A stretch of 64,000 bases of DNA from positions 186,001 to 250,000 of the forward strand of contig JABYQU010000055.1 of assembly GCA_022264855.1 (NCBI GenBank), given 5' to 3'. The translations under genes were made by a program, and so were the position numbers. A model generated the notes under the pieces. That model was given only the letters and a program-made list of their open reading frames with translations. It had not been told where the DNA came from and ran no database searches. The DNA comes from Lenzites betulinus (lineage: Eukaryota; Basidiomycota; Agaricomycetes; Polyporales; Polyporaceae). This document shows positions 30,237-64,000 of this stretch, in pieces (within the stretch, counting starts at the first letter, position 1; each line of letters begins with the position of its first letter).

Positions 30237-30284
30237 GCGCAGCCGGGTACCGTGCGGGGGCGGCGGGGTTTGGGACAGCGCGGT

Positions 30285-42675: not shown

Positions 42676-45418
42676 CGGGTATGCTGGAGTCTTCGCGACG
42701 CGATATCCGCGCGCCCAGGATTCGTCCGTCTCCTCCGAGTCGCTATCAGACGAGTCGGACTCTGCACCCGCGACAGTGCGCGCGCCAGGCAACTGTGCGA
42801 CGTTGACAGCGCGCGGTTCCTGGCTTGAGTCACCAGTAGCTTCCCCTGCAAGGTGATAGCATTAGCACATAAACAATACATGTGCTATCAGACTCGGGCC
42901 GCATGCCCGCCCTCACGCACCTCGAGTTGAGCCATTCCCAGCCTGAGCTTGAGGTTCGGATGCGGAGCTGGAGACTATCAAGCAGAGGTGGTGAGTGGAG
43001 GGAACAGAGGGAGACGGGAGAGGACTCACTGCGGAGCTGTGTTGGCCGGTCGAGAGTGGCCTGCCAGTCCACATATGCCGCGAAGCGATGTACCGCCTCG
43101 TGCCTGTCAAGCCAGCGTGTCATTTGCTTGACATATGTCAGCTGTTTGTTGCTTGCGCCATACGCGAGCTTCGCGAAGTCGATGTGTAGCCGCTCGGGGT
43201 GCTCAGTGCTGAACCCCGCCGCCGCTCCGACCGCGCGGATTCCGAGCTCGTAGTGTTCCATCGAATGCCCTTTGGGGAAATTGAAGTGCGTGCGGATCTC
43301 CAGCTCGATGAAGATGCTCTTGTGCACGTGGAAGTCTGACCACGCCTTGTGCAAGGCGTTGAGCGAGACGTCCGTGTGAGTTTCGAAATGCGCATAATAG
43401 ATGAAATCTAAAACAGCGCGAACGGCGCGCGTGACACGCTCATCAGCGGCGCCGGCCATAGTGCCGAGAAAGACCTTCTCCATGTTCTTGTATTCAGTCC
43501 CAGTCCATTGGGACACGAGTGAGATACCCTTCTTGAAGTGTCGGAGGTCAGAGTGCCGAGGCATTGCCATGAACCGCTTGTCGATCTCGTCCGCGCCGTC
43601 GCCATCGGGAATTGCCTTCGTGACCCAGCTGACAAGGTGGTCTTTGAAGACGCCCTTGTGAAGTTGATGGAGGATGTCGGGAGTGAGTGCGGTGAAGATG
43701 TTGCAGTGTGGGAAGTCCCTCCAAAAGGGCTCGACTGCGCGCAACCCCCATTGAGAGAATTCCGGTGGCTTCCAATCGTCATGAGCGGCACTATTGAGGA
43801 CCTCGGATACGCGTGCTGGATCCTTAAGAGCTGAGACGGATGGTTCACCCCGCTTATCTGGACTGACAGGACACTTGGGACAGTAGTTCTCTTGGCAAGC
43901 TGAGACGAGGCATTGTTCGGGGTGGTCAGCGATGTAGGCGGCGATGATGGGGAAGACCCGTCGAATGAACCCGTCTGCACATGTCATCATGACCCCGTCC
44001 CTTCCTGCCGCCATGAGAGGTTCGAGGAGTGTGCGCATGCACTGATGGAATAGTCGGTAGCCCTCAAGAGCGCGCTTCTTCTCGGAGAAGCACTCGAGCT
44101 TGGCGACAGGAAGATATCCCAGGAGCACTGTTGCGTGAGAAGATGGTTTGCGCCGGGTGTTCTGGTCGAAGTTCCCTAGAGTGAGGTAGACAGGCCAGGC
44201 GGACTTGTCTCCGCTCATGCGCGAGAGCGTAGTCTTGTCTGAGGCGAGGATAATGGGGGCTACGGTTGCGTCATTGGGGAGTTTCATCTACGCAAAGGGT
44301 ATAAACATGTATTTACGACAACAGGTGTGATCGTAGTGAAACAGGACTGACTTGAACATCCCACCACCAATTCCCCGTCCACATATTGTTATAGACGTGT
44401 GACTCCCCCGCATGGTCGGCATACTGCTTCTCAGGCGCGTACCGGATGTGGTCCCGGAACAGCGGGTTCTCGAACAGCTCACGCACGCAGTCGAGAGCGT
44501 CTCGTTTCCATAGCTCGACTCTCTCCCTCTTTGGTTTGCCATCCTCTCCCATCTCATCGCCCACCGCATCAAACACCTCGACCTTCCAGCTGGCCAGCCC
44601 GCCTGGAAGCTCGTCGACCATCTTGTAGAATAGGTAGTTGCTGCGGAAACTTGGGTGCGTCCGCGTCTGGGTCTGCCAACACACATTGGTGAGCATCCAA
44701 GTCATCTGGTCAAGGTCCTGAATAGACAAGCACTCACAATCTTAAGTTTCAGAAACTTATCGATGTTTGACTGGGTTAGGCCAGACGTCACCAGCCACTC
44801 CGCCAACTCCCATTCCTCCTGGCATTCGAACGGCGCCCATAAGGCTTCACCGGCAGCCTCCTTGCGTCGCCGAATGCGCTCGAACGAGGTTTCGCCCCTC
44901 CCGAACGTCTTGCCCGCATCGCCTGGGAAATCCTCCAGCCACGGACGACGGGGAAGCCCTCCTTCCTCCTCATCTGCCACCTCCTCAACTTCGACACGCC
45001 GCCGTTGAGCTGGACGGCCTACATCTGGGTCTGAGTCTGCGTTCGCCGCTCCAGCTCCAGCTTGGCCCTCACAGTGTCGTTCGGGATCCGGCATTGCAGG
45101 TATGTCGTCCTCTGATGTGTCGGTAGGGCCATTGTTTCCGTTGTCGCTTATGATGTTGTCTTCAACAGGTTGTTCTTCTGCTCCGGCCCCCGAGACATCT
45201 CCCGCAATGACTGCAACAGCCGCAAAGGCTTCTGCGAGGGCCTCATCGCGGCGAGCACCGTTCTCGGCATCCCAGGCTCGTCGACACTCAGGGTTGAGTT
45301 TGCGATGCGCACCCAAGCCTTGCGCGGTCCGCAGCGTTGTGTGGCACGTTTTACAGGTATTCGGCGGCAGGACAAGGGGAGGCAGAGCAGCCATGTTGGC
45401 GGGAGGGACCTCAGGCAT
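42667..45418 (-). pseudogene. Plavaka (CACTA) transposase, N-terminal and catalytic part
   Basis: Five exons, 45418-44738, 44717-44352, 44287-43030, 42974-42921 and 42845-42667, join in frame to 845 aa. The N-terminus has a C2H2-like finger (CKTCHTTLRTAQGLGAHRKL, then a Cys). The core has family motifs WPVYLTLGNFDQNTRRKPSS, HATVLLGYLPVAKLEC, CPKCPVSPDKRG, LTPDILHQLHKGVFKDHLV and SMEHYELGIRAVG. The last native residues are RGYRVAKTPAYP; then Gln-Ala-stop are read from inserted DNA. The missing C-terminal domain lies at 28,829-29,614 on the same strand. No other lesion was seen, so the gene looks recently broken. Head to head with the DUF6532 gene, with 257 bp between start codons. Confidence 0.85.
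42676..42682 (+). repeat. Target-site duplication CGGGTAT, right copy
   Basis: Identical to 29,608-29,614. On the minus strand it encodes the Tyr-Pro at which the Plavaka reading frame enters the inserted element, and the frame stops two codons later. Confidence 0.75.
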
Positions 45419-48601: not shown

Positions 48602-48622
48602 CTACGTGGTACCACGTAGACA
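48599..48622. repeat. Perfect 24-bp palindrome at the end of element C pol
   Basis: Begins TGTCTACGTGG and is its own reverse complement, with centre GGTACC. It overlaps the pol stop codon. A purine-rich run (GAAAAAATGGGA on the minus strand) ends just outside it, where a polypurine tract and a TG LTR start would be expected. Confidence 0.7.
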
Positions 48623-50204
48623 TCCCATTTTTTCCTGATGCACGCATCGCTCCTGCCACCGTACCCACGCGCCGTCCCACCGTTCCCACTCGTCGGCATA
48701 CTCGCTTGACTCGTGCGCAAGTGCGCGCGCGCGCGGTGCTATGCGTATGAAGGGCATGCGCGGCGCGTCCGCGTTCGCCCGATGGAAGTCTGCCGCGAGT
48801 GCTGTAGGTACTTTAGCCCTCGGCTCCCATGTAGCTTCCGCAACTGCGCGCCCCTTCCATTTCACCAGGTATTGGATTGCGCCACAAACTATTTTAGAGT
48901 CACGTATGTACTCAGGTTCGTCGGGCTGCGCGACCAGGTTCGGAATGGGTGTATCGTCCACTTGATTCGGAAACTCGGGTGCGTGCGCGGGCGTGAGTAG
49001 TGCTTCATTGAAGACCGGGTATATACCACGGCTGCGCCATTGTCTCGGAAGCTTGAGCTTGTACGCACTGGCGCCCACCTTCTCGAGCACCTCGAACGGT
49101 CCGTAGCGTTTGTCCTCAAGTTTCTTTCGTGGGCGCTCCGTAGTGATGTTATGCGAATCGAGGTAGACATGGCTTCCGGGTTCGTAGTGGCGCGCTGCTC
49201 CCTTGTGTAGGTCATGCTTGCGCTTCATCGCTTCGTTTGCAATGGTCAGCGCGGCCGATGCCTCTTCCTGAATGCGCTTCATCCGCGCGACCCACTGCAC
49301 CGCCGTCTCCGTCCGCATGCCCTTGCGCGTCTCTGCACCTGTGTACGGGTCTCGCCCATGTGTCATGTAGAAGGGCGAGAAACTGGTCGCCGAGTGTACT
49401 CGAATGCAGTATGAGAATGCAGCGAGAGGCAGCCACTCAACCCAATCCGTCTGCCTGTAGTTGATGAAGATCCGAAGGTAGTTCTCAATCTCCTGGTTGA
49501 GGCGCTCAGTTTGGCCGTCGGTCTGGGGATGATACACAGTGCTCGGGTTCCCTTCGATGCCAAGTTTCCGGTACAAGTCTCGAGTGAGCGCAGACACGAA
49601 CTGAGGACCGCGGTCGGATGTGATGCGTTTTGGTAGGCCATGGACTGCGACTACGTGCCATAGTAGGAGGTTCGCGTACCCTTCTGACTTCAGGCTCTCC
49701 GTGGTGGGGATGGGTATGTAGTCTTTGGATTTCCTGTCTACTACCATGAGAATTGAATCTTTCCCTTGGCATTCAGGTAGATGTGTGATAAGATCCACTG
49801 AGATGTCCTCCCAGTTGTGATCCGGGACCGGGTTTGGGTGTAGTGGTGCGGCGCGCGGCTGGTGATCTATCTTTGTCCGCTGACAGACTGCACAACCCTT
49901 CACGTATGCGCCTACGTCTCGACGGATTGACGGCCACCAATAGGACCTCTGCACGAGTTCCTGCGTCTTTGAGCGGCCCGGGTGTCCCGCCACAATTGAA
50001 TCGTGATGTGCCGCAATTACTCGTCCACGCAAGTCCCTCTCCGCCGGCACTACCACCCTCCCCCTCCTGTAGACCAGGCCGTCCGCGGCCTGCTCGTACT
50101 CCGGGTCTTTGGCTGCGAGCTTGTTGCGTACAGAATTGTCCAAGTTATCCTGCAGCTCCCGGATGCGTCCGAGCAGTCGCTCGCTGCCGTCGGTGGTGGC
50201 GCGG
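48602..50204 (-). pseudogene. Ty3/Gypsy chromovirus (element C), integrase part of pol
   Basis: Open frame, N-terminally truncated at 50,204, where element A begins. In order it has the H2C2 zinc-binding domain (HHDSIVAGHPGRSKTQ ... CAVCQR), the integrase core with Asp in SVDLITHLP, Asp in TSDRGPQFVS and Glu in ERLNQEIEN, a GPY/F-like region (DKRYGPFEVLEKVGASAYKL) and a C-terminal chromodomain (IQYLVKWKGRAVAEATWEP). The chromodomain would tether integration to modified histones. Gag, protease, reverse transcriptase and RNase H are missing and may continue beyond the window, on the far side of A and B. Its DNA lacks the motif bias of A and B. Confidence 0.88.
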
Positions 50205-51073
50205 TGATACGGTAAGAGGTGCTCTGACGGCCGATAGCCGAGGGGTAGAGGACGTCTAGGTGTGTGATGAAGGGGAGTAAGGTCTCGAGCTCCCTAGGTT
50301 CGCTAGTAGGCCGGCCCGCGTACTGTTCGCGCGCTAGCAGAAGGGAAGCCTCTCGCGCACAAGGCAAGAGCGCGCGCGGACTCGCACTGTAGAAGGGCGC
50401 GCGCGGAGGTAAGCTCGGTAACGCAGCGCGCGCAGGAATAACGCAACGCTCGCAGTCAGCCGCGGGGCTTCGCAACGCAGTACGCACGCAGTAAAACGCA
50501 GGAGGAACGGAATAGACGCAATATACGCAACTGACGGTACGCTGTCACAGCGGAGAGGTCTCCAGTCGTCCTGCCTTGAAGGGGAAGCTGTTGCACGTTA
50601 AGAAGCGCGAGGGACACGTTCCCAGCAGTTGAGAGAGTGAGGGGTGGATTGTCTGGGGGGTTCGAATGCCCCGAAATGACTATGTACAGGAATGCCCGCA
50701 GGCTGAATCAAAAACACGTGCTACCCTACGGAAGATAAGCGGAAACCGGGCCCGGGATGCCTCGCGCGCCGGGCGCACTCGCCGCGCGCGATCCGACTCT
50801 TCGCGCGCCTCGTGCGCGCGCCACTGATGCGCTCAGCGGCCCCGCGCGCGCGAGCTGCTAGGGCAGAGGGCTCTGGATAGCGACAGGCATCGCGCGCGCC
50901 GTGGTGAAGTGCCCGCGCGCATCTTGACCTTGCGCGCGATGGCTACGCTCACTACGCGCGCGACGTAGGGGGCACCAAGGTGAGCGGTGGGCTCTGCGCG
51001 CGCTGTGGTTGGCGTGCGCGCGCAAGGGTGGAAAAGGAGGGTTTCTGGCCTGGAACGCCTGTGGAGCGTATCA
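50205..51073 (-). repeat. 3' LTR of element A (869 bp)
   Basis: On the plus strand it begins TGATACGGTAAG and ends GAGCGTATCA, so the termini TGATAC/GTATCA form a perfect 6-bp inverted repeat with the canonical TG..CA. On the minus strand it follows directly after the polypurine tract. Element C coding sequence resumes immediately at 50,204. No second LTR is in the window for comparison. Confidence 0.65.
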
Positions 51074-51109
51074 TCTCCCCCCCACTAAAATCCTGACCGC
51101 CCTCGGTCA
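51074..51109 (-). promoter_or_regulatory. Polypurine tract and adjacent hairpin, element A
   Basis: On the minus strand GTGGGGGGGAGA abuts the LTR start TGATACG, the expected layout for plus-strand DNA priming. Next to it, 51,094-51,109 reads TGACCGCCCTCGGTCA, a 6-bp perfect stem with a CCCT loop. Element B has the same hairpin with a compensating base pair. Confidence 0.7.
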
Positions 51110-51138
51110 ACGCGATCGATGCCGGAGGTCCTTGGAAG

Positions 51139-51147
51139 TATAAAAAG
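51139..51147 (+). promoter_or_regulatory. TATA box of the antisense helper gene, element A
   Basis: TATAAAAAG, 49 bp upstream of an ATG in a GCCGCCACCATG context. It lies just outside the LTR and points away from it on the strand opposite to pol, so the antisense block appears to have its own promoter. Confidence 0.55.
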
Positions 51148-51187
51148 GGGGGTGGGGTATAGGATAGAGGCCGACCCTGCCGCCACC

Positions 51188-51839
51188 ATGAGCATGACCC
51201 TCGAACAACTCTTGCAAGTCGGTGTCGAGCTGCGCAGCCTTCATCCTGACGCCACCCTGCCTAGGATCGACCGCGCGACCAATGCGCTGCGTCGGGTCGT
51301 TGAGGGAGGACGTGGATCAGAGGAGGGCTTGCGCGCGCGCATAGCTGCCGTGGTGCGCGCCTTTGTGAGTCGCGCGCGCTGCCTCCGCGCGCTGTTGCTG
51401 ACCGCGCGCGCAGGAGGCCCACTATATCGTCTACCCGCGCGGGGCCACGCTTGCGGAGCGCGTAGAGACCGTCGAGGGGATCGTCGCGGCCATTCCGCCC
51501 GAACTTGGGCTTGCGCGCGTCTTTGAGGACGAGTTCTACGCCATGCGCACCAGGGTCGCGCCGATGATCTTCAATCAGTGGCTGCCGGTCCTCGCGCTGC
51601 TAGAACACCGCGCGCGCGAGTATCGCGACACTCTGGTAGGCCTGCGCGCGCTGGATCCAATGAACGCGCCAGCTCCGTCGACCTTGGTCCGCGTCGAAGG
51701 CCACTTGCAGGACATCCAGGACTTGAAGCGCGAGCTAGTCAACGCACAGTTCGCATATGGGGAGGGGGACTTGGACATCTTGGAGAGTAACGACGCCCAT
51801 GGGGACGCGCGCACGGTTCCGCGGACCGCGGAAATGTAG
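51188..51839 (+). CDS. Antisense helper protein, element A (200 aa)
   Basis: Two exons, 51188-51364 and 51414-51839, give 200 aa. The 49-nt intron is GTGAGT to GCAG and consists almost entirely of CGCGCG words. The start codon has an ideal context (GCCGCCACCATG). The protein is helical, with Leu/Ala/Arg-rich segments (MSMTLEQLLQVGVELRSLHP; TRVAPMIFNQWLPVLALLEH). It has no known domain. Two genes in element B (56,593 and 57,435) have the same layout: a first exon of 57-59 codons, a phase-0 intron, then Glu, and 184-199 aa. These are therefore one family. It is transcribed opposite to pol. Function unknown; a coiled-coil structural or adaptor role is only a guess. Confidence 0.7.
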
Positions 51840-52262
51840 AGGGCTGCGCGCGCTATAGGGAGACACGGCCGCGCGCGACTGTAGGGCACCGGGGACGCGG
51901 ACTTGGAGAAATAAACAACGTTTGTGACGTCATCCTCGCGCTGAGTGCTTCGGATCCTCGGATTTGCGTCCCGGAATGGCGGTTCCATTGTCTGCGCGCC
52001 GTTCCCAAAGGCCGGTAGGTCCGTCAGGGTCGCCCACGGGGCAGGCGCGCGCTTGAGCCCATCGCGCGCGCGGCTCCGCGGAGCTCGCGCATTGCCGCGC
52101 GCGTAGCGCCTAAGCGCGCGCTCATGCAGGGTCGCGCGCGAGGTCGCCGCGCTATTGTCCTCGCCTCAGAAAAGGCCTGCCCGCCCTTCTTCGTTTTTCG
52201 CCTCCTTTTCCTCTTCGCCCCCACCTTGCTCGCTTTACTCGCCCCTCCTGCCGACCGCCGCT

Positions 52263-54079
52263 ATGCCCGCACCGCCCGTATCCACTCAGACCTGGGGAGG
52301 CAAAGACGAGCAACTCGTCCGCGCGCTGGAGACCGCGATGGCGCCGGTGTGGAATGGGGAGCCCGGGGACGACGCAACGGACAGCGAGTGCCGCAAGTGG
52401 GCCCGCCGCGCCGCGCGCATCCTGGTATGTCCGCGCGCGCTGCTTCCTGTGTTGCCAGCTGACCGATTTCGTCGTAGGACTCGCGGGGGAGGCGCTCTGC
52501 CCGCCGTTTGTCCTCATCTCCCACGCCGACGCAGTGTGGACGCGCACGTCCGAGGCCTTCGCGGCTGACGACTCCGAGTGGCCGGAGTGGGCGCGCGGAC
52601 AGCTCCTCGCCGCGCGCAAGCGTCGCGCCGCCGCCGAGGCTGAGCGCAAACGCCGCGCCGCCGCCGCCGAAGACCCCGACCCCTTCGCCGCCGCCCTCCG
52701 CGACATCCAGGCCGCCACGCCGCCTCCTCGCACTCCGTCCGCGCGCAGCGGTCGCTCGCGCGCAAGCGTCCCTCCGTCATCATCAGCTCGCGCGGCTCCA
52801 GGGCCTCCAAGAAGCGCGCTCGCAGCCCCTCCGTCGAGCTCATCTCGCGCGACACGGAGTCGTTCCATCCGGACGACGAGGAGGAGACCGACGACGTCGA
52901 GATCGTCGATGGCCCCGCGGCCGATGACGAGGACGATCACGCCAGCGACGACGACGCCGCCATGAGCGTGGACCGCGCCCCCTCGACCGCCTCAACACGC
53001 GAGCTGCGTCCGCGCGCGCCCGCACTAATCCCCCGCCACCCAAGAAGAAGGCCAAATGATGGTCCCGCGCGCCGCACAAGCCGCGAGCCCATGCTCGGGA
53101 GACTGGCGAGTAAGTCCCTTCCGCGCGCTTTCGGTCGCTACCGTGCTGACTCCTTCCCAGCAACACGAGCGCTGCAACAACTGCCGCAAGTCGGCCCTCC
53201 TTTGCGTCCTGGGCGAAGGGGCGACCAAGTGCCACCGGTGCGCGCGCCGGCGCCAGAAGTGCGCCACTCCAAGCGGACGAAGACTACGCCGAATGGTACG
53301 ACGAGCAGGGGTTCGAGCGCGGTAAGTCCTCCACACTACGCACCCGCGCGCGCGACTGACATTCCTTCTTGCAGCGCGCGTCATTCTCGACTCCGCCGGG
53401 AATGTCGCGGGCGCGGACTTCATAGGTCCCGCCCCCGCCGACTTCGTTCCCGCGACGTCGGAGCCATCCACTCCGCGAAAGGGAAGAAGAAGGCCACCGC
53501 GGCGACGGCCTCGCCCGTCCAGCCTGCTGCGCGCGCATCCAAGCCCGCGACGCCTGCCTCGGCGCAGACCGCTGCCCCGCGCGCCCAGTCGCGTCGTCGT
53601 CCAGGCCCACCGCGTCCACCTCCGCGCCGCCACGGCCATCGCCTCGTCGTCCGGACCGCCCCGGCCGCGCGACAAACACCAGCGTCGACCCCGGCCGCCT
53701 CGCCCGCGGACAAGACCGCTGCTCCCGCCGTCGCGCGCGCTCCGCCCCAGCCTCGCCCTGTCGCGCGCCCTTCCGCACGTCTCCGCGCCGGTCTCAACCG
53801 CGGCCTTCGTGCCGCCTGCCGCCCCTACCGGATTCCTACTCGGGCACCGGCCGCGATACGGCCTCGGGACCGTCTTGTCGACCCCAACGACCCCGCGGAC
53901 ATGTCGCGCGGCCGGCGTGCGGCGCTGCAAGTCGCGCGCGTCGAGCTTGAGGTCCTGGCATGCGGCGCAACGGCCTCCTGGCCTCAGCCGTTCCTCGAGG
54001 ATTGGGTCGCGCGATTCTGGCCGACCCGACGGACGAGACGGTGCCTGCGCTGTGGACCCCGCCGACGCGCGAGTAGGAT
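52263..54079 (+). pseudogene. Antisense six-Cys protein of element A, frameshifted
   Basis: Exon 1 (52263-52424, 54 codons) ends at a GTATGT donor and exon 2 begins near 52,474 (GLAGEALCPPFVLISHADAV). The frame then shifts near 52,720 to give KRPSVIISSRGSRASKKRAR and an acidic region. A separate exon at 53,161-53,321 encodes a cluster with spacing C-x2-C-x6-C-x8-C-x2-C-x6-C (53,172-53,262), then shifts again before DYAEWYDEQGFER. A last exon reads into a C-terminus ending VPALWTPPTRE after another shift. The intact homologue is at 58,472-60,641 in element B, with the same exon order and WYD..GFxR motif. So this copy is broken, although its coding character and CGCGCG bias remain. Confidence 0.65.
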
Positions 54080-54375
54080 AACGCGCGCGCGCCCTAGACT
54101 TGTAGATATTGTAGATAGGCTCGCGTCTTGCGCCTGTACATAGCACCTTGTCTTGGGAATTGAGTCCGCGCGCGCGTGTGCGTGTGGCGGCATCTTCTTG
54201 GCCTCTTTTGGTGTGCTGTAACGACCGACTAGAGCTAACTTGAATGAAAGAAAGGGTATCGAGGCGCGCGCGAGACGCGCGCCTTGGCACATTGAAGTAT
54301 GTGGACTCGTCCGCGCGCGCCTACTCCGCGATGTCCTCGTCTCCGCGCCATCCTCTTCGGAGTGCACCAGCTCCG

Positions 54376-55815
54376 CTAAACGCTTGTCCGAGATGTCCGC
54401 AAAGTTCGGGGAAGCGCAATGTACTGGCGCGCGAAGTAGGGGATGAGTCGGAATGCCCCAATGGGGCGATGAAACACTGTGCCGTCCAGCTCGCAGACCA
54501 CATACGCGCCTCCGCGGTTACGTGAGACTACTACGACGGGTCCTGTGTACCGCGCGCGCATCTTGCGGTTGAGTGACTTCTCGATTTGGGTGTGTCGTAC
54601 CAAGACGAGCGCGCCGGCCCCGAAGTCGAAGTCGCGCATAGTGTGCTGATGATCGCGCTCGAACTTCTGAGCCGCGCGCACGCGCGCGCTGTAGACCGTA
54701 GAGCGCAGTCGCGCGACGTCCTCCGCGCGGCGTTGTAGCGCTACGGCTCTGCGCGCGATGAGCTCCGTGGTGGAGATAAGTCCCTGGGGCGCGGGCATGA
54801 GATAGGTAGCTTCGGAGATGTCGAACGGGAGGATCGGGTGGCAGCCCGTGACTGCAAAGTAGGGGGAACAACCCATGCGGCGACGTATAGTGATGCGCTC
54901 TGACCAAAAGACTGAGTGCGCGACCTGCGACCACTTGGTCTGGTCTCCATCCGCGGCCTTGAACAGGGCTGGCGTACGTCAAAGTGGGGGCGCTCTACCA
55001 GTCCGTTCGCGCGCGAGTTGTAGCCACTGATACGGACGTGGTGAACACCATGCTGTTTCTCGATCCTCCGCATGGCTTTCACAAAGGCGCGCCGTTGTCC
55101 GTGATGATCTCCATGACCCCGCCCCAGCGGCAGAGTATGTCCTGGTAGATGAAGTCGGCTAAGTCTTCTCGGTCTCGCGACGCAGCATACGCCACTCCAC
55201 ATAGGCCGTGAGGCGCAGCGCGCCTGGACGATGAGCTTGAACCCGCCTGAGACGGGCATGAACATGGTGTCGATGTAGATGCGCGCAAGACTGAGGCTGG
55301 CATCGCGACCGTAGGGGGGATGACGATGTGTCGCACCTGACGCAGTTGGCAGAGGTGACATGTCCTGACGAACCAAGTCACGTCATCGCGCAGGGTAGGC
55401 CACCAGAAGCGTTCTGAGATGGTCTGGAGCGTCGCGTAGCGTCCACGGTGTCCTAGGGAGTCGTGCGCGACCCGGAGCACCTCGTAGCGGCCCTCATAGT
55501 GTACGACCAGCTTGTGCGCGCCGTGAGGGTCCTTGCGCCAGAGCCTTCCGTCATGAAGGAAGAACTGCTGCGCGTACTTGATAAACCGCGCGTAGGTCTC
55601 GTCTGAGATGCCCAAAGGCCGGTGGAGAGTCCCGAGCCAGTCCTTGACGTCCGATAGCCTCTCGTCGCCGCGAACCGTGTGTTTGGACTTGGGGATAGCC
55701 GGTGGAGGCTCCTGCGCGTCCTCGTCTTCGGCTGGTGTGTGTGCGCGCGCGGATCTGTCGGCGCTCGTGGCCTCGGCCTCGCGCGCGCGTTGCTCCGGCG
55801 TGGGTGTGTCCGCGC
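54376..55815 (-). pseudogene. Element A pol fragment: H2C2 and integrase
   Basis: Reads from the truncation at 55,815 (ADTPTPEQRAREAEA) through a pre-integrase segment (LHRPLGISDETYARFIKYAQ), H2C2 zinc-binding domain (HDSLGHRGRYATLQ ... CHLCQ) and integrase core (Asp in ITDNGAP, Glu in GLVERPHFD) to the GPY/F-like end (RARYTGPVVVVSRNRGGAYV). It needs frame changes near 55,080, around 54,900 and near 54,420, so it is dead. It is clearly homologous to the element B protein over its whole length (shared MGCSPYFAVTGCHPILP). There is no chromodomain, unlike element C. RNase H and reverse transcriptase are absent here. Confidence 0.85.
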
Positions 55816-56451
55816 TGATGCACTGAGACCTGCTATAACAGCAGGGATAGAGGGCGCGGCCGAGAGCCTAGGGGGCGAGGCCGGACGTAGTGCGGGGAGG
55901 GAAGGATAATGCCTGCGAGTAAGGGCCGGTTTCCCTTCACTGGGCTTCCACGAAGCGTCGCCGGTCGCGGTCGTCCCGCTATCGCAGAGGGAAGGTGGGT
56001 ACGCGGTCCGTCGGTTCTATCGCAACCGGTCGCAGTGCCAGCGAACTGGTAAGGAGGCGTGGACGAGGCAGTCGCGGTGGTCAGGGGAAGCCGCGATCGC
56101 AGTCGCAAGTTCGCGTCGCAGCTCGCGGTCGCAGTTCGCAGTTCGCGGTCGCAGTCGCAGTCGCAGTCGGTACCAGGGCCGTTCTATGAGATCTGAGGGG
56201 TGGGGATGGCTTACGTTCTGAAAACTACGGAGCACGGAATATATACATGGACGATACCGGGTCGCTCTCCCAAAGTCCGAGATCAGCCGGTCGCACGGCC
56301 AGACTCCTCCTGCTGCGACTACGGTCCTCAGGCGCCCGCGACTCAGCCGGGCGTGCGACGGCTCGCGACGGCTTGCGACGGCTGCGCCGAAGCCTGCTAC
56401 GCCCGTACCTAACTGTACCGCTCCGGCCTCAGCGGGCCGCGGGTCGCATCA
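55816..56451 (-). repeat. 3' LTR of element B (636 bp)
   Basis: On the plus strand it begins TGATGCACTG and ends GTCGCATCA, giving a perfect TGATGC/GCATCA inverted terminus. It follows the polypurine tract on the minus strand. TCGCAG and GCGAC words are dense, including a run near 56,140-56,170. The other LTR lies beyond the window. Confidence 0.68.
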
Positions 56452-56487
56452 TCTCCCCCTCACTGAGATCCCGACCGCCCTCGGTCG
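56452..56487 (-). promoter_or_regulatory. Polypurine tract and adjacent hairpin, element B
   Basis: On the minus strand AGTGAGGGGGAGA abuts the LTR start TGATGCG. The hairpin CGACCGCCCTCGGTCG (56,472-56,487) has a 6-bp perfect stem. Its outer pair is C-G where element A has T-A. Confidence 0.7.
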
Positions 56488-56592
56488 GCCATCGATGCGA
56501 TCGCGCGATAGACCCTGCGATAAAGGTCACCATCTGCCCACGGAGGCCCACCTATCCTTTTCGCTCTCTCTCCTATGCGCGGTATCGCCACC

Positions 56593-57254
56593 ATGGATAA
56601 CTTGGTCGAAATCGAGGCCGCATCGGCTCGCCTGCGACAGACTACTATCTCCCTGGCCCGTGCACAGGTCGAAGAGCAGGCGGCCATTATGGAGGAGATG
56701 GTCGAGACCGGCTATAGCGTCGCAGATTGGGAGGACGCCATCGACCGCTTCCTGTACCGCACGGTACGTCCTATCGGCCAGTCTCCTGCTCTGCGAGCGA
56801 TGCGATACTGAGCTTGCCTTCCTAGGAGTCGTACTTCTTGATTTCCCTCGGCGATACCGTGATGACGCCCCTCCTTACTCGCGCCCGAGTGGCCTTGCGC
56901 GCCCTGGAACGACACAGCGAGTACCGCGGCGCGGTCGCAGATTTCGACCGACGACTCTTTACCATGTCGCGCGACCTGGAAGGTGTCTTCTTAGCTGCCG
57001 CCCGCCAGCGCCTGGTCCTTCTACGCTCTCGCTCCTCTGCGATCCACAACGTTCTTGCGATCGCGGGCGCCGACCGGTCCGTGGACATGGCCCAGTCGCA
57101 GGATATCGCGGGCGCGATCGCCCGTCTTCAGCGCGACGTCGCGGCCGCCCAAGACGCCTATCGTGGTGGAGAGCGCACGGTACTGGTCGACCGCCCTGAG
57201 GAGGCTGGGTGGGTCGCAGCCATGGAGGAGGTTGCGACTAATCGTTCGGGTTAG
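56593..57254 (+). CDS. Antisense helper protein 1, element B (199 aa)
   Basis: Exons 56593-56763 and 56826-57254 give 199 aa; the 62-nt intron is GTACGT to CTAG. The start (CGCCACCATGG) is in a strong context. The product is helical, Ala/Arg/Leu/Glu-rich (MDNLVEIEAASARLRQTTIS; FTMSRDLEGVFLAAARQRLV; IARLQRDVAAAQDAYRGG), suggesting coiled coils. Same length, first-exon size and phase-0 junction as the element A gene at 51,188, and almost the same structure as the next gene. Transcribed opposite to pol, away from the LTR. The frame is intact. No known domain; function unknown. Confidence 0.72.
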
Positions 57255-57374
57255 GAAGGAGGGAAGACACCTGAAGGCAGGAGACGAATTGCGATGCGTG
57301 TAGTCTAGCCCATCGATGGATTAGATGTCTTGCGATCGGTTCCCGATTGCGACCTCGTGTGGCCCGCTCCTTCC

Positions 57375-57380
57375 TATAAG
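57375..57380 (+). promoter_or_regulatory. TATA-like box of helper gene 2, element B
   Basis: TATAAG, 60 bp upstream of the ATG at 57,435, spacing usual for a fungal TATA element. It supports separate transcription of this antisense gene. Confidence 0.4.
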
Positions 57381-57434
57381 TCTGCGACCTGCGATGCGAC
57401 CAGCCTGGTATCGCACGCCCCAGTACTCCGCGCC

Positions 57435-58038
57435 ATGGATCCCCTTCCTGATCTTGTCCGCGCTATAGACTCTCTCTGCGGCGAACTTGTCGACCCCGCC
57501 CTCTACCAGTTAGAGTCGCAGGTTGCGACCATCGAGGGCGCCCTTTCTTCCGTGGACCCGCCTGATATCCGCCACTGGCACGTCCTTGCGACGCGTGTCC
57601 TGGTCGCCATAGTGCGTATGCTAGCTGCTTCCCAGCGCAGTCATTGACCCGTAGTCGCAGGAAGCCTGTATTGCGATGGGCTGCGACCAAGCTCTTGTGG
57701 ATGCCGCGACCGCCCGCGCCCTCTCGGTCCTGCGATCGCAGACTGCGTACCCCGACCTCGGCCCCTGGTTCCTGCGAGAGAGACTTCGGTACACAGCCGC
57801 TCAAGAATGCCTTACTCTCGAAGTGACTCGCGCCCAGCTACGTTTATTGGTGTCGCGGGCCGACGCGGCTCGCGGAGTGGCCAGTCGCGCGGGCGGGGCC
57901 GGGCATACATTGTCTTCTGCTCTCTCCAGCATCCGAGGGGCTTCGGCGCGCGCCTTGCGGGGAACTGAGCACGCGCTTACCGAATTAGGGGAGATGGAGG
58001 GCGTCGGCCTCGGTGCCGCGGGGGCGGGACTGGACTAG
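57435..58038 (+). CDS. Antisense helper protein 2, element B (184 aa)
   Basis: Exons 57435-57611 (59 codons) and 57661-58038 give 184 aa; the 49-nt intron is GTGCGT to GCAG. The product is helical with Ala, Leu, Arg and Gly (MDPLPDLVRAIDSLCGELVD; TLEVTRAQLRLLVSRADAAR). Exon 1 length equals that of the element A helper gene (177 nt), and exon 2 also starts with a Glu codon in phase 0. It looks like a tandem duplicate of helper 1 that has diverged strongly. Element A has room for only one such gene. Intact frame, no known domain. Confidence 0.7.
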
Positions 58039-58471
58039 TCAGGGGAGGCGGGCCGCCCGAAACGGAGGAGTAGGGAAGCCCGGCGCGGCCGCCGTTTGGC
58101 GTCTATGGTGTATTTCTGGCGCGCCAATCCTAGCTCTGGCATTTGCGACCCGTTGCGATCGGGGTACGATCTGGTGGGAACGTGTCGCGCGCTCCGCTGC
58201 GCTCTGAATGTACCCGCGTAGCGCCTGTTCGACTGGGTCGCGGCGCGTCAGCGCTAAGTCTCCGTGCGCTGGAAATTTTGCTTCCGCGATGCTTCGGCGC
58301 TTGACGTGCCGCGTGCTTGCGACTGTTAGCGCTTCCCGACCCTGCGCTGCTGCCGTCCGCGGGAGGGGTGCTGCGACGGCTAAGTACCCGTCGCATCTGT
58401 CGCGGGACTTCGTGCTTTCTCCCTCCCTTTCCTCCTCTCCTCCTTCTCTTCTGCTTCTCTCTGCTCTCCCC

Positions 58472-60641
58472 ATGGCTGGCTCGTCCACCTCCGCGTCCCG
58501 TAAAGGCAAGAACCGCGCCGACCCCGCGCTCATGCGCGCTGACACGATTACGAACCTGGAGGACCTCTTCAGGGCGGCCCCCGACGGCGTGGCCACTGCG
58601 GCCGACTATGCGGACTTTGCGACGTCCGCACTGGTTTGGATGGTATGCCCCCCCCTTTTCTGCGACTGCGACCAAGTTATCCTGACCTCCTTCCTAGCGG
58701 CGCTTGGAGCGCTACGGGGGTGACGCCGAGCTGATCGCCGTATGGGGCGATCGCCTGTTCGAGGCCGTCGACGCGGGGCTCGACGGATACATGGGTGAGG
58801 ACAGTCCGTCCGAGGACCCCATGTATGTTGCCGCCCGCGAGCGAGCCGGCGCTGCTTTGGTCGCGCGACGCGCCGCAGAGGCCGAGGCCCGCGAGGCCGA
58901 GGAACAACGGGAGGTCGCGGCTCGCCGCAAGATTTGGGCCGACGCACGTGCCGCCGCCGCCGACTCCGACGAGGAGGACATCCCTCTCGCCGTCGCAGCC
59001 CCAGCCGCCGCCGCAGCCCCAAGGACCCGCGCCATGATGCGCGCCTCCAATGCCCCTCCACTCGCGACCAGGCCCCCAGCTGCGACCAAAGTGGCGCCCG
59101 CGACCAAAGCAGCACCTGCGACGAAGACTGCGCCTGCGACCAAGGCGACACCTGCGACGAAGGCAGCGCCAGCGACCAAAGCGGCCGTCACCTTGAAGGT
59201 CACCCCGGTCGCGAAGTCCGTGCCCCTGCCCGCTCCGGTGACGCCCACGAAGCCCGAGGTCGCAGCTGCGACCTCGTCCACGACTTCGCCCGCTTCCCCG
59301 GCTGGCCCGTCGCGCAAACGCGCCCGCGACGACGAGGACCTCGTCCTGGTCACGAAGCGACCACGGACGACTGAGGGCTTCGAGCCCGCGACCTATCCGC
59401 CGGGCGCGCGCGTGCCCTCTGGCAAGGAGGCGGTAAGTTCCCGTCCCTCATCCATCTGCGATCGCGCTAACCCCCTTTCTCCACAGTGCGTGCAGTGCCA
59501 GACACTTGTGCGCCCCCGATGCGTCCTGCGTCGCGGGGTGCGCAAGTGCGACCGCTGCGTGTACTCCCAAAAGGGGTGCTACGCGCCGGGGCACATCGAC
59601 TACGGGGAGTGGTACGACAGCAACGGGTTCGACCGCGGTATGTCGCAAGCTGCCCGGCCTTCGAGTTTCTTGCGATACTGACTTCTTTGCTTTGATCTAG
59701 CGAACTCGCCTGTCGGACACATCTGGCGCGCGGTCCTCACCGCGAAAGGTCGTCCCTCCGACGTTCCCGAATGCTGCCGGCTGCCTGAGGGTGTCACGGA
59801 GGAAGAGGCGACCGCACAGGAGCTCAACGCCCTCCTGGCCGCCGCTGCTGCGGAGCGCGCGACGGCCGCCCCTGCGATCGCGCCCGCACCTGCGACCACC
59901 GCGACGCCTGCGACCACCGCGACGCCTGCGACCGCCGCAGCTCCTGCGACCGCCGCAGCTCCTGCGACCGTCGCGACGCCTGCACCCAAGGCCACGACCG
60001 CGACCTTCCTCCTTCGGCCTTTCCCTCCGCGCGTCGCCACGCCTCCGCCCGCCCCTCGTGCCCCGACACCTCCGTCTGCGATCGCGCCTGCCCGCGAAGA
60101 GGACATCACGCTGGCCCCCTCAAGCGCCGCACAAGACGCGGAGCGCCTCCCGTCGGTTTTGGTGAGCCAACTCTTCCCTCCGGTAGAGTACACCCGACTG
60201 ATCGTGACCTACCCCGGCCAGGAGGACCTTCTTCGCATCCAGGCCCGGCCGACGCGCACTTATGGGGCCTCGCGTACCATCGCGGGCGGGCCGAGCCCTT
60301 CGACTTCCCGGTCGCGCGCCCCGGACTCCGCCGCCACCCACTCTGCGATCGCACCGGTCGCGGGCCCTTCCCGTCTCGCGCCCCGCGCTCGCCCGGCTGC
60401 GACGCAGACCGCGTCTCTCCTGCCGGCTGAGCCACCGCGCGACGAGGAGGGGGACGACTTGGAAAACGTCCCCGGGATGACTGAAGACCGCCGTCTTCTC
60501 ATCCTCGCCTATCGCCAGGAGCGCGCCTTCCTACGGGCCCGCATATCTGCGCTGACCCATCAGGTCGCCGACTTGCAGGAGCGCGAGAGGCTATTGCTCG
60601 GCCTTGAGTGGAGCGCGGCGGACTTGGAGCCGGAGGACTAG
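58472..60641 (+). CDS. Antisense six-Cys (Zn2Cys6-like) protein, element B (665 aa)
   Basis: Exons 58472-58642, 58698-59432, 59487-59637 and 59701-60641 join in frame to 665 aa. Residues 1-57 repeat the short-first-exon layout of the helper genes. Residues 140-235 are Ala/Arg/Glu-rich, then Thr/Pro/Ala repeats of the APATKA type. Exon 3 encodes cysteines at 303, 306, 314, 323, 326 and 333 (C-x2-C-x7-C-x8-C-x2-C-x6-C), close to the fungal Zn2Cys6 binuclear DNA-binding cluster, followed by YGEWYDSNGFDR. After a second repeat region (TATPAT, TAAPA) the C-terminus is a probable coiled coil (AFLRARISALTHQVADLQER). It could be a DNA-binding regulator or a Gag-like protein. It is antisense to pol and ends 390 bp from the pol stop codon. 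Confidence 0.75.
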
Positions 60642-61031
60642 ATTTGCGATCGCGGCCCTTAGGTAGTTTTCTTGGGACTCTTATGTACCTAGTCGCGCGC
60701 CGCCAATATCGCAGGTAGGGGAGTACCTCGGACTTGTATATACCGTCTTGTCCATACCCTTGCGCTGCCGTCGCATGCGACCGTGGTCTCCATCGCGGGG
60801 GTAGGCACGCAGAACTTGTGGGTCGTCTGCCTTCTTGATGTACTTGTAGCACGCGATCTCGAGCTGTCGCAGTGGTCGTCGCAGGTGGGCCATAATACAC
60901 GTCACTTCTCCCTTGTCCGTTCTCGTCCTGAAAGAGTGTGAATGGAGAGGTCGCAAGTGCGACCGCTCTGAGAAACATAAATAGGGGTATAGAGTCGCCC
61001 TTGCGACGGTGGTACGCTTGCGACCGCGACC
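60642..61031. other. Convergent intergenic spacer in element B
   Basis: 390 bp between the ends of the antisense six-Cys gene and pol. It must hold both 3' UTRs and polyadenylation sites. No gene. Confidence 0.6.
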
Positions 61032-64000
61032 TCAGTCTGATTCGTCGCCTTCGCTGCCCCCTGGCCCTGCGAATACTGGCGGCTCGTCTAAGACTTCTGG
61101 TTCCGGGTCTTCTATACCGTCGTCCTCGGATGCGACTAGCTCGTGTAGCCTTTTTCCTGAGATGTCTGCGAACCCTTCAGGGAGGGGTATAGCCTTGCGG
61201 GCTAGGTACGGGATGACTCGGAAGGCTGCGACCGGTCGGTGTAGCACTGAGCCGTCCAGTTCGCAGAGCACGTATGCGCCTCCGCGATTGCGGGACACTA
61301 CCACTAACGGACCTGTGTACCGCGGTCGCATCTTGCGATTCAGTGATTTCTCGATCTGCGTGTGCCGCATGAGGACCAGGGCCCCGGGCTTGAAGTCGAA
61401 GTCGCGTATGGTCGCAGCGTGATCGCGCTCGAACTTCTGGGCGGCCTCCACTCTCGCTCGGTAGACCCTTGAGTGTAGTGTAGCTAGCTGCCCTTGCCGC
61501 TTTTGGAGTTCGATCGCACGTCGCGCGATGAGGTCTTCGGTTGACAGGAGTTTTTCTGGCGCGGGCATGAGGTAGGTCGCCTCTGCGATATCCATAGGGA
61601 GGATGGGGTGGCACCCTGTGACCGCGAAGTAGGGCGAACAGCCCATACGTTTGCGGACCGTGATGCGATCCGCCCAGAATACGTAGGGTGCGACCTGCGA
61701 CCACCTGGCCTGGTCGCCGTCCGCTGCCTTGAATAGCAGCTGTCGCAGGTCGAAGTGCGATCTCTCGACGATCCCGTTGGCCTTGGAGTTGTACGCGCTG
61801 ATACGGATATGGGGAAGGCCATATTTGCGCTGTAGTCTTCCGGCCGCACTGACGAAGGCCGACCCATTGTCGGTCACGATCTCCGAGGGTGCGCCCCATC
61901 GGCAGTACAAGTCTTGGAGGAGGAAGTCGGTGATGACCTTGTCCGTTTCTACCCGTAGCATGCGCCATTCCGTCCATGCCGATACGGAGCATCGCGCTGC
62001 GACGATGTTGCGGAACCCGCCGGACGCCGGCATCTTCATGGTGTCCACGTACCATCGTACAAAGAGCGCGCCTGGTCGCGCGACTGTGGGTGGGATCAGG
62101 ATCTTGCGATGCGATCGCACCTGACACAGGTGGCACGTCTTGATGTACCAGGACACGTCCTCTCGTAGGGAGGGCCACCAAAAGCGTTCTGCGACCATCT
62201 GGAGCGTCGCGTAGTTGCCTCGGTGTCCTAGCTCGTCGTGCGCTTTCCGTAGTATGCTGAAGCGTCGCTCGGGTCGCACTACTATCTTGTGTGCGCCTTG
62301 AGCGTCCTTCTTCCACAACCGTTGGTCGTCGCAGAAGAATCCTTGTGCGTACTTGATCAGGGACGCGTACTGGCTATCCGTGAGGCCCAGTGGTCGCTGG
62401 AGCGTTCGAAGCCAGTCCGCAACTAGTTGCAGCCGCGCGTCGGCTTTGGTCGAGTGCTCGTTAGACGGTAGCTCGGTCTCTTGGTCTGTCGCGGCTGCCT
62501 CTGCTTCTGTGTCGCTGCTCGCGCGATCCTCCCCCTCACTGAAATTTCGACCGTCCTCGGTCGCTTCGGATAACTCCAACATTGCGATCGCAGGCGTCTT
62601 GCGTCGCAGACGCGATGGGGGAGCTAGGATGTGATGCATGAAGCCGTGGACCTTGTCTATCCAGTCCTCGAATTCGTCTGGGTCTTCCGCAGGGTCATCA
62701 TCGGGTTGTGGGTTGCGACGCGACAGGCCGTCTGGGCCATGCGACGTGCCCGGCACATGTACCAGGTGGAAGTGGAAGGTGAGGATACCCAAGATCCAGC
62801 GGTTGATGCTTGCGCTGGGCGCGAGGTCAGGATTCTGTAGCATTCCGCGGATATATCGCGCGTCGACCTCGACTATGAGGTTGCGAACTCCTACTAGGTA
62901 GATCTTGGTCGCCTGTAGTGCGCGGAACAGACCATAGAGCTCTAGTTTCGGTTGCGAGAAGCGCGCTTCACGCTCGTTGAGGGTGATGGACCCGAAGCGG
63001 CTATAATAGCGCTTGCGAAGGTCGTCTGGGTCGCATTGGCAGAGGTGGTAGCCTACTGCGATGTAGGATGTGTCGACTGCGAGTACCACTGGCGCTCCAT
63101 TGTCGTAGTCGATCGCCCGTAGCGCGGGGGAGGCCAGGAGCGCCTCTCGCAAATCGTCCATTGCTGCGATCTGCGCTCTCCGAATTCGAATGGAGCGTCT
63201 TTCCTTGTGAGTGCGACCAGCGCGTGCGCCCGTCGCGCGAAGTTGCGTATGAAGATCCTTGCGACGCCTACGGTCCCCAAGAAGGCGCGTACCTCCGAGA
63301 GGTCCTTGCATGTGCGCCACTTCTTGATTGCTGCGACGCGCGATTCGTCTGGCTTGCGACCTTCGGGGGTGCACCGATGCCCTACCACCAGTATCTCGCG
63401 GGCGCAGAGGATTGACTTCTTCCCAGAGAACGTCCCGCCTGCGTACTTCATGCGCTGGACGATGCGATTGTTGTTCTGGAAGTGTTCCCAAACAAAACGA
63501 CGGATCCCTGGGTTCTCTGGGATGGTCTCGTAGGTCCCTCCCTCGTCGCGATAGTCTGACGCCGGCCCTTTACAGGGTACATCGTCGATGTAGGGGACCG
63601 TGATCTCAGGTATTTCCGGTCGCAGGATGTAGGTGACGTCGTCGTGGAAAATTGGTACGGAATTCGACCATCCCATAGGGAGGGTACAGTGTCGCAGCGC
63701 CCCGTAGGGCGTCTGGAAGGTTGTGAGGTCGCGCGATGACTCTGCGATCAACCTCTCGTCGTACCCTACGTAGAGATCGAAGATCGCGCCGCATGCGCGA
63801 CCTCCGAACTGTTCGGCTAGGTAGTCGGGCGTAGGTGTTACTCCAGAGTGTTGGATGGTAACCTTGTTGAGTGGCTCTAGACTGTGTACAATTCGCAGCG
63901 ACTTCGCGTCCTTTTTGAGGACGCAGAACCATCGCGACCGATAGGAGGAGTTGGATGGCTCGTAGACGCCGGCTGCGATCTTCTTCTTGAGCATGTCGCA
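61032..64000 (-). pseudogene. Element B pol: reverse transcriptase, RNase H, integrase (partial)
   Basis: Enters from the right edge inside the reverse transcriptase (RIVHSLEPLNKVTIQHSG; LPMGWSNSVPIFHDDV; YIDD at 63,582-63,593). RNase H follows (VVLAVDTSYIAVGYHL; EARFSQPKLELYGLFRAL; LIVEVDARYIRGML), then an acidic linker with a second polypurine/hairpin copy, the H2C2 domain (HDELGHRGNYATLQ ... CHLCQ), the integrase core (Asp in WYVDTMKMP, Asp in VTDNGSAFV, Glu in GIVERSHFD) and a GPY/F-like end, with no chromodomain. One frame change is needed near 63,185 between FEFG and AQIAAMDD, a net loss of one base. It is called a pseudogene for that reason; a programmed shift or a sequencing error are alternatives. 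The rest, 2.1 kb to the stop, is open. Confidence 0.85.
62529..62563 (-). promoter_or_regulatory. Internal (central) polypurine tract and hairpin copy
   Basis: Inside pol, the minus strand repeats the 3' polypurine region: AGTGAGGGGGAGG with the hairpin CGACCGTCCTCGGTCG (plus strand, 62,548-62,563). Compared with 56,452-56,487 it differs by about five transitions over 36 bp. It encodes EDGRNFSEGED within the pol frame. Confidence 0.65.

Follow-up and report, generated by a model that had tools for sequence, protein, structure and literature searches.

In a 64,000-bp stretch of the Lenzites betulinus genome (the window; bases 186001-250000 of contig C60, which has 255,212 bases, in a 37.4-Mb assembly of 108 contigs), two adjoining long terminal repeat (LTR) retrotransposons of the Ty3 type, elements A and B, are each crowded with a different short DNA word: CGCGCG in A and TCGCA/TGCGA in B. 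A third sister family, D, has a word of its own, YGCGRA. These family-specific words are very probably under selection in B and A, and probably in D as well. We propose that selection on single-base changes fills each of the three families, along its full length, with roughly 80 to 200 words, which would act as dispersed double-stranded DNA sites with a GCG core and family-specific flanks. The reader of these sites would be encoded by the element itself, most likely as an antisense protein with six cysteines (six-Cys) that resembles a zinc cluster. Binding along the whole element would most likely keep an element's own copies, and not those of its sisters, unsilenced (if silencing is CpG-based) or otherwise active. 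We slightly favor this full explanation, in which the selected words are sites for an element-coded six-Cys protein that gives self-protection. (L-numbers refer to fetched loci and C-numbers to contigs, and coordinates of element B past 64000 were read on the window together with L009.)

Each of three sister families has its own word

Our recount reproduced exactly the six word counts of the initial annotation: 17 CGCGCG and 1 TGCGA/TCGCA in element A (51301-51900), 1 CGCGCG and 15 TGCGA/TCGCA in element B (57301-57900), and one of each in the pol of another fragment, element C (49201-49800). Its example of a matching site was also correct (the A string lies at 54549-54568 and the B string at 61319-61338). 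In 100 first-order Markov simulations of each stretch, CGCGCG was expected 3.2 times in the A stretch (maximum 9) and TCGCA/TGCGA 2.0 times in the B stretch (maximum 5). Over 50301-55815, A contains 107 CGCGCG, as compared to 24.5 in simulations, and the entire element B (12,548 bp) contains 198 TCGCA/TGCGA, as compared to 36.4 (maximum 53). The rest of the window is not equally enriched: over 1-48600, the B word shows no excess (134 vs. 137.1 simulated) and CGCGCG shows only a mild one. Nor is the bias lost in other copies, as 26 of the 27 loci from the A, B, and D families carry it, and it stands over both simulations and synonymous shuffles (see below).

The initial annotation described two sister retrotransposons. 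A and B are indeed related, but there are three such families. A search of this genome with pol gave at least 73 matches (scores were computed for 54 of the 231 initial candidates), and 30 loci, several of them overlapping, were taken from it for a survey of k-mers. The top 5-mer was TCGCA in all 13 B-family loci (9 elements), CGCGC in all 10 A-family loci (8 elements), and GCGGA in 3 of 4 D-family loci; the exception, L029, holds part of a hAT-like insertion. These 5-mers were absent, as such, from the top of the lists for three loci of the outer families E (C63) and F (C19b and C80). The refined words are YTGCGAY for B, YGCGRA for D, and CGCGCG for A, so that the GCG core is common and the flanks differ. 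In a tree of 22 pol sequences (FastTree), each family is monophyletic (support 0.987-1.0), B groups with D (1.0), A, B, and D group together (0.988), and E and then F fall outside. The pol of B and D is 75% identical, that of A is 67-70% identical to the others, E is at 53-55%, and B and F are 45% identical.

The D element on C19 has LTRs at L065:63-739 (C19:540763-541439) and C19:554024-554700 that are 99.85% identical over 677 bp (one end is cut by the piece). The A and B LTRs hold runs that, as read by eye, resemble an array of CTGCGAAC-like units in the D LTR, and this may be an older array that the LTRs share. Separately, the insertion in the D copy at L029/L046 (C87:55001-63765) is 5.45 kb long and has an over-represented word of its own, GGGTAC (15 vs. 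2.3 expected); we take it to be a hAT-like transposon from its TDAWTSPNHRAF stretch.

The words exceed synonymous expectation and were gained by many kinds of change

Could the words reflect composition and CpG content only, with young GC-rich elements in a host that methylates CpG and with old copies that have become CpG-depleted? The representatives of A, B, and D are GC-rich with CpG observed/expected (o/e) ratios of 1.2-1.3, some older loci are CpG-poor, and there is some CGCGCG excess in the host and in element C. However, the words are in excess over both the dinucleotide expectation and shuffles of synonymous codons in pol, which keep the protein and the codon usage. In these shuffles, B pol (C31) had 58 sites vs. 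16.1 (z = 13.5), A pol (C22) had 33 vs. 9.1 (z = 6.3), and D pol (C43) had 33 vs. 15.0 (z = 5.2), while the words of the sister families in these frames gave z of at most 1.4. (Across all shuffled frames, CGCGRA reached z = 2.4 in one B frame and 2.1 in one A frame.) With the refined words, the counts were 30 vs. 5.2 for B, 46 vs. 22.1 for D, and 33 vs. 9.2 and 47 vs. 20.4 for A, and none of 1000 shuffles reached any of these. In the frames of E and F, neither the B word nor the A word exceeded the synonymous shuffles; the E frame had 13 YGCGRA vs. 8.1, which was reached by 25 of 500 shuffles. Also, matched CpG words are retained less well than the family words in 5 of 10 stretches (see below), and the favored CpG-containing word differs from family to family. 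The shuffles thus refute composition as the sole cause, and we consider this explanation to be very improbable.

The changes can be polarized in a three-way alignment of pol (2,922 columns) by counting those that are unique to one family. In the B lineage, TCGCA was gained 25 times and lost once; in the A lineage, CGCGC was gained 39 times and lost 8 times; each was the top net 5-mer. (The A row was assembled from four copies, some of them broken, so the A numbers are noisy.) The words of the sister families were mostly lost: the ratio of gains to losses for CGCGCG was 2:16 in B and 1:15 in D, and for TCGCA it was 1:13 in A and 2:10 in D. Outside of D, gains and losses of YGCGRA were about even (9:9 in B and 9:11 in A). 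The gains used 14 of the 15 possible single-base changes in B and all 15 in A, and they fell at every position of the word. The word-creating changes in B were 23 synonymous and 11 non-synonymous; in A, they were 26 synonymous and 41 non-synonymous.

These results bear on what the initial annotation considered the main alternative, a mutational or conversion origin, in which a mutation bias (for example, of a family's reverse transcriptase) or biased conversion would build the words without selection. Such a process would explain why the bias spans coding and non-coding DNA alike, and the word-creating changes in A were non-synonymous as often (41/67) as all A changes were (245/403). But a simple copying error does not build one five-base target from every one of its neighbors, and the words of the sister families are lost. 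Furthermore, the overall spectra of derived changes in B and D are similar (291 and 294 changes), and a mutational bias common to both lineages would not be expected to favor different five-base words via all types of change. Given the variety of word-creating changes, we rejected mutation bias as the sole cause. As for conversion, it leaves the family difference in the favored word unexplained. Overall, an origin without selection seems improbable.

Two more specific sources of the words were also rejected. First, the replacement of one word by another at the same site does not hold, as 8 of 56 B pol sites are identical in D, and the overlap with the D word is 6 vs. a null mean of 2.9 (maximum 7). 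Second, tandem repeats are not the main source of the words in pol, as 56 of the 58 B sites there align with D codon by codon and without gaps.

Words are retained between copies

We compared the retention of words between copies to that of control words of equal CpG and GC content in ten stretches. (The z-values are inflated by overlapping words and by shared subfamilies, namely C20 and L053.) Retention was clearly above the controls in five stretches (z = 2.3 to 6.4). For A vs. C22, retention of CGCGC was.870, as compared to.543 for the controls (z = 6.4). For B, the values were.871 vs..732 in the accessory region of C20 (z = 3.5),.811 vs..620 for L053 (z = 3.2), and.821 vs..643 for L052 (z = 2.7). 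For D (C43 vs. C40), they were.818 vs..639 for CGCGGA and.811 vs..605 for CGCGAA (z = 2.3 each). Words that belong to another family were retained much like their controls: in D, TCGCA at.714 vs..720 and CGCGC at.716 vs..726; in the B accessory region, CGCGC at.592 vs..564; and in A, TCGCA at.500 vs..616 (n = 8). A partial exception is CGCGC in B vs. C20 pol (.876 vs..767, z = 1.7). Better retention on its own could stem from biased conversion.

The words occur in both orientations and at random-like spacing

The initial annotation stated that the bias runs through LTRs, introns, and coding DNA, and we found an excess in the LTR, in introns, and in coding DNA. The density of the B word is 27/kb in the LTR, 29/kb in the introns of the six-Cys gene (5 in 172 bp), 10/kb in its exons, and 10-16/kb elsewhere. 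The lower density in exons would be expected from a limit that coding constraint sets on the words. In B, the sites are spaced in a random-like way (coefficient of variation 0.95 vs. 0.98), and we rejected helical or otherwise regular spacing on this basis.

The two orientations of the B word are present at 115:83 overall, and the ratio of TCGCA to TGCGA is 4:13 in the LTR, 25:16 in gag, 35:22 in pol, and 47:19 in the accessory region. For CGCGRA in D, the ratio is 51:38. The use of both orientations argues that the words act as double-stranded DNA and not as RNA. If they were instead a signal for the packaging, export, or modification of genomic RNA, then it would make sense that they lie along the full genomic RNA, and there is a slight preference for one orientation in B. 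However, an RNA signal would be expected on the sense strand, and both orientations occur in every region of B and in D. (The word of A, being a palindrome, says nothing on this point.) We rejected the RNA signal on these strand counts, and it seems quite improbable.

An antisense six-Cys gene is a candidate for the reader

Elements A, B, and D all contain a six-Cys exon, in a gene that lies antisense between pol and the 3' LTR. The cysteine spacing is C-X2-C-X7-C-X8-C-X2-C-X6-C in B and C-X2-C-X6-C-X8-C-X2-C-X6-C in A; in D, the first loop is X11. The families resemble each other from the fourth cysteine onward (KCDRC, KCHRC, or RCDRC, and a YxxWYxxxG tail), while the first loop between cysteines differs in both length and sequence. 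In the zinc-cluster (Zn2Cys6) factors of fungi, the spacing is C-X2-C-X6-C-X5-16-C-X2-C-X6-8-C, and zinc clusters read short GC-rich words. A fits this pattern, but B and D, with X7 and X11 in the first loop, do not strictly fit it. In B, basic runs that resemble a nuclear localization signal (as read by eye) precede the separate six-cysteine exon.

Pairwise alignments of the six-Cys exon between families, which span 47-50 columns, give 40-45% identity; in a joint alignment, the identity to B is 38-41%. As this is about 40%, vs. 67-75% for pol, the six-Cys exon changes more along with the word. Within families, it is constrained by purifying selection. Between the subfamilies B and B2, it is 94% identical, with 0.55 synonymous substitutions per site (dS), 0.026 non-synonymous substitutions per site (dN), and dN/dS of about 0.05; among six A copies, dS is up to 0.48 and dN is up to 0.076. 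Between B and C20, the identity is 0.894 for the six-Cys exon and 0.66-0.79 for the other exons and the introns (exon 4 was compared over 369 bases only, and it is misaligned in some other pairs). Among the 28 loci where the exon is readable (23 places, three families), its type predicts which of the three words is strongest in 26. The exceptions are L042, which contains part of an A-type LTR insertion (the same place without the insertion, L060, agrees), and L062, which is D-like and CpG-poor. Thus, the gene pointed out by the initial annotation is real in the sense of an open, constrained, and family-specific frame, and it is a good candidate for the reader. We lean towards the view, from the sequence, that the six-Cys protein reads the family words.

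Another possibility is that the words are selected but have a different reader, such as integrase, Gag, a small antisense open reading frame (ORF), or else a transcription factor or chromatin protein of the host, in which case they could function in transcription, in self-recognition at integration, or in chromatin positioning. The evidence for selection is blind to the identity of the reader, and small antisense ORFs do exist beside the six-Cys gene. Also, B words reach their highest densities in the LTR and the six-Cys introns, as promoter sites might. On the other hand, sites throughout coding DNA exceed what a promoter would need, and one would hardly expect a host factor to require a distinct word in each sister family. 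Integrase is part of a pol that is far more similar between families than the six-Cys exon is. We view a different reader as somewhat unlikely.

The initial annotation had proposed that the motifs are dispersed recognition sites for an element-coded factor. The words, their family specificity, and selection on them are supported by our results; that the six-Cys protein is expressed, binds the words, and allows escape from silencing is what we infer. More tentatively, the words may form a private address that is written across the element, including the polymerase and integrase genes and with amino-acid changes, and that has a matching antisense reader resembling a zinc cluster, so that each sister element would have its own protection from CpG silencing, not shared with the others. 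A shift in the specificity of the reader would then lead to the rewriting of the whole element over no more than the distance between sister families, whose pol is about 75% identical.

Likely parallels in plants

Sequence-specific self-recognition by transposons has been shown in plants for VANDAL elements and their VANC proteins (PMC5735166). As described in that report, VANDALs are Mutator-like DNA transposons of Arabidopsis, and each family has a short motif that is dense within the family and sporadic elsewhere. The report also describes VANC proteins with variable regions, in which related proteins recognize different words (YAGTATTAY for VANC21 and AGTTGTCC/AGTTGTAC for VANC6), and it places the motifs mainly in non-coding DNA, in one orientation and often in tandem repeats (PMC5735166). 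The families described here are similar in that dense, private, short words go along with a variable protein encoded by the transposable element (the proteins were likened by description). Unlike VANDALs, they are fungal LTR retrotransposons and not elements with a Mutator-like transposase (VANA); their words are also in coding DNA, are in both orientations, and have random-like spacing; and in pol, the words arose through single substitutions at codons that align without gaps. Also, binding of VANC to the motif and demethylation were demonstrated experimentally in VANDAL (PMC5735166), whereas the fungal families are known here from sequence alone.

A second parallel is Retand, which, like Grande and RIRE2, is a plant Ty3/Gypsy element with a long region between pol and the 3' LTR that contains antisense ORFs (PMC11963269). 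According to the available part of that report, TRP28, which is predicted to bind DNA, is found in 97% of clusters, there are family-specific tandem arrays, and the function is not known; a dispersed word along the whole length is not mentioned there (PMC11963269). B, and also A and D, share the antisense gene between pol and the 3' LTR, but these are fungal elements with a six-Cys exon instead of plant elements with TRP28. A Pfam search that included TRP28 (PF04195) gave no match for the two long six-Cys frames of B, the A frame at 52644-54143, or the three exons; the small antisense ORFs were left out of this search.

Among the matches listed in full-text searches of the open-licence PMC literature, no title or abstract opening describes word-saturated LTR retrotransposons. 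If our proposal is correct, then fungal LTR retrotransposons would use the same logic as VANDAL and VANC, which would make that logic convergent and general, and selection would be changing coding DNA in order to create sites for a DNA-binding protein. With their different words, the three sister families would also lend themselves to the study of how such a protein changes in step with as many as 200 of its sites, and the pairs of readers and words might be used as sequence-specific chromatin tools.

CpG content and silencing

Each of the three words contains CpG. The CpG o/e ratio is 1.3, 1.21, and 1.27 in the A, B, and D representatives (0.96-1.35 across all A, B, and D pieces) and 1.05 in the host stretch. 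In contrast, family F is CpG-depleted, with o/e of 0.42 in C19b (L038, L045, C19:237971-247000) and 0.71 in C80 (L039), and its TpG/CpA is raised (1.29 and 1.21). Two loci with a D-like six-Cys stretch, L062 (C32:955029-958244) and L063 (C55:172489-175704), have o/e of 0.73 and 0.67. They are 68-77% identical to D and possibly represent an older, further family; relative to D, C-to-T changes affect 21% of their CpG cytosines vs. 13-14% of other cytosines. Some elements of the genome thus carry an apparent footprint of CpG methylation. That the word-rich families have been spared the loss of CpG fits with protection, but also with simple youth. By analogy with VANDAL, anti-silencing may be the outcome of word binding, and we suggest this tentatively.

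Observations that do not fit well

Several of our observations weigh against the explanation that we favor. First, the words are not fully exclusive. CGCGCG has a mild general excess in the window over 1-48600 (52 vs. 33.5, with a maximum of 50 in 20 simulations), and element C has 6 vs. 1.4 simulated (maximum 5 of 100) and 13 vs. 4.5 in synonymous shuffles (both phases counted; reached by 4 of 500). Genome-wide, there are 457 triple clusters of GTCGCA vs. 64 for the reversed control, but some of the clusters sit in ordinary tandem repeats (such as C1:321-324 kb), so TCGCA is not dense in these elements alone. (For CGCGCGC, the reversed control is uninformative because the pattern is the same when read backwards.) The TGCGA array in the D LTR (10 in 677 bp vs. 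1.8 expected) is another departure from exclusivity. Second, the evidence for selection is uneven. Copies within a family are not independent, so the effective n is three families. In the D lineage, YGCGRA was gained 18 times and lost 10 times, which is weak, and it was not a top word. In the five stretches without clearly higher retention, all from B, three lean the same way (.844 vs..781, z = 1.6, in C20 pol;.917 vs..862, z = 1.6, in C98 pol; and.833 vs..757, z = 1.0, in L050) and two show nothing (.690 vs..692 in L050 and.571 vs..573 in the C98 accessory region, where the alignment is poor, at 79% identity; z = 0.0 for both).

Third, the putative kinship of the six-Cys protein with zinc clusters is indicated solely by the cysteine spacing. 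Neither PF00172 nor any other zinc-cluster family in Pfam matched the A, B, or D exons at E up to 10 (the search filters drop most matches above E of about 0.1), a sequence search of PDB with the A exon, the only one searched, gave no credible match, and AlphaFold2 on the B exon alone, as a single sequence, gave a low-confidence model (predicted local distance difference test score, pLDDT, of 57.5). Fourth, an F-type pol (C55:166255-167889, plus strand) is followed, after about 6 kb, by the D-like six-Cys stretch in L063 (C55:173989-174204, minus strand), so that family F may have a six-Cys gene as well. Finally, CpG retention is not special to the word-rich families, because the word-poor family E has a CpG o/e of 1.17.

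The six-Cys protein also has few visible relatives. With the six-Cys frame of B and its spliced protein, we found no match at E of 0.01 in the same protein collection in which pol has 924 relatives at E of 1e-5; fast evolution, introns, or gene calling may explain this. (The pol relatives include, among the matches listed, at least one Heterobasidion record and at least one Mycena record; scans of viral and genome contigs gave no relatives of pol.) No six-Cys exon was found on either strand of the E piece (C63) or the F pieces (C19b, C80), although these are incomplete and the E piece contains an A-type LTR.

Structure of the elements

Element B runs on the minus strand from 55816 to 68363 and so, as a correction to the initial annotation, extends beyond the end of the window. 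Its LTRs (55816-56451 and 67734-68363) are 98.9% identical and have the ends TGATG...GCATCA. The first of these, the 3' LTR in the orientation of pol (minus strand), starts with TG, ends with CA, and has 17 TCGCA/TGCGA in 636 bp. Next come small antisense ORFs and spacers (56452-58471, plus strand; 33 words in 2,020 bp) and then the six-Cys gene (58472-60642, plus strand, antisense to pol), which has four exons (58472-58642, 58698-59432, 59487-59637 with the six cysteines, and 59701-60642), GT-AG introns, and an open spliced frame of 665 amino acids. Exons 2 and 4, like the LTR, contain small arrays of the word. The pol (61032-64000 in the window, minus strand) includes part of the reverse transcriptase, RNase H, and the H2C2 and core parts of integrase in two overlapping frames of 845 and 315 amino acids; in L012 and other loci, it is one longer open frame. 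In the 845-amino-acid frame, RNase H (PF17919/PF17917) is followed by integrase H2C2 (PF17921), which is the Ty3 order. The integrase core (PF00665) scored 28.9 bits, below the cut-off of 32.6, and the reverse transcriptase (PF00078), upstream, was also below the cut-off (E = 0.0011). No target-site duplication of 3-8 bp was found at the flanks of this copy, the only one that we looked at. We considered whether B is a nested insertion with A on both sides and rejected this, as the right flank matches no element piece that we compared and there is no duplication.

Element A (50205-55815, minus strand) is a truncated retrotransposon with the same layout, consisting of a fragment of pol and the region 3' of it, and it is cut off at the LTR of B. 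We corrected the limits of its LTR (3' in the orientation of pol, minus strand) to 50205-51073; it is 85% identical to a solo A-type LTR in L043 and contains 45 CGCGCG/GCGCGC (both phases) within 773 bp. A small antisense ORF (51188-51839, plus strand) starts with the ATG at 51188, and its exon limits are approximate, with all but the first exon placed by eye. The six-Cys gene (52263-54143, plus strand, antisense to pol) has several exons, with the six-Cys exon at 53160-53321, and its end is approximate (the end of the open frame). In this copy there is a frameshift after the cysteines; the frame is unshifted in L001, L002, L005, L007, L008, and L037. The 3' part of pol (54376-55867, minus strand) is a broken frame with the zinc-binding H2C2 of integrase, and it extends 52 bases into the LTR of B. 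PF17921 matches 55079-55867 (E = 2.3e-19), and 54376-54978 has no Pfam match. One 20-base string of A is found at 13 exact places in the genome, including this copy. Next to A, element C (48602-50293) is a chromodomain-bearing fragment of Ty3 pol (PF00385, PF24626) that overlaps the left edge of the LTR of A.

A-family copies or clusters of CGCGCGC lie within about 7 kb of the ends of contigs C2, C4, C37, C47, C51, C59, C62, and C76 (for C4, this was checked at the contig start only). Either the assembly breaks at these repeats or the elements have a subtelomeric preference.

Other repeats and genes

At C1:321415-324458, there is a tandem array of a GTCGCAGCAGCCGGCAAGAATGCTAC-like unit, with dense TCGCA that, as far as we saw, is outside of these elements. 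Within the window, a Plavaka transposase is encoded at 42830-44287 (PF18759, E = 2e-91), and adjoining it (42299-42592) is an array whose units contain TAATACATT and measure 22 to 84 bp. This transposase and the pol relatives in Heterobasidion and Mycena are indicative of a basidiomycete. Three open frames on the minus strand have F-box-like matches (10836-12647, 17300-19336, and 20190-22091, with E of 1.8e-4, 6.1e-6, and 5.6e-4, respectively), and only the second reaches the cut-off. Finally, a GC-rich minisatellite at 30278-31323 has periods of 40, 78, and 234, among others (score up to 1279), and multiple reading frames are open across it on both strands.

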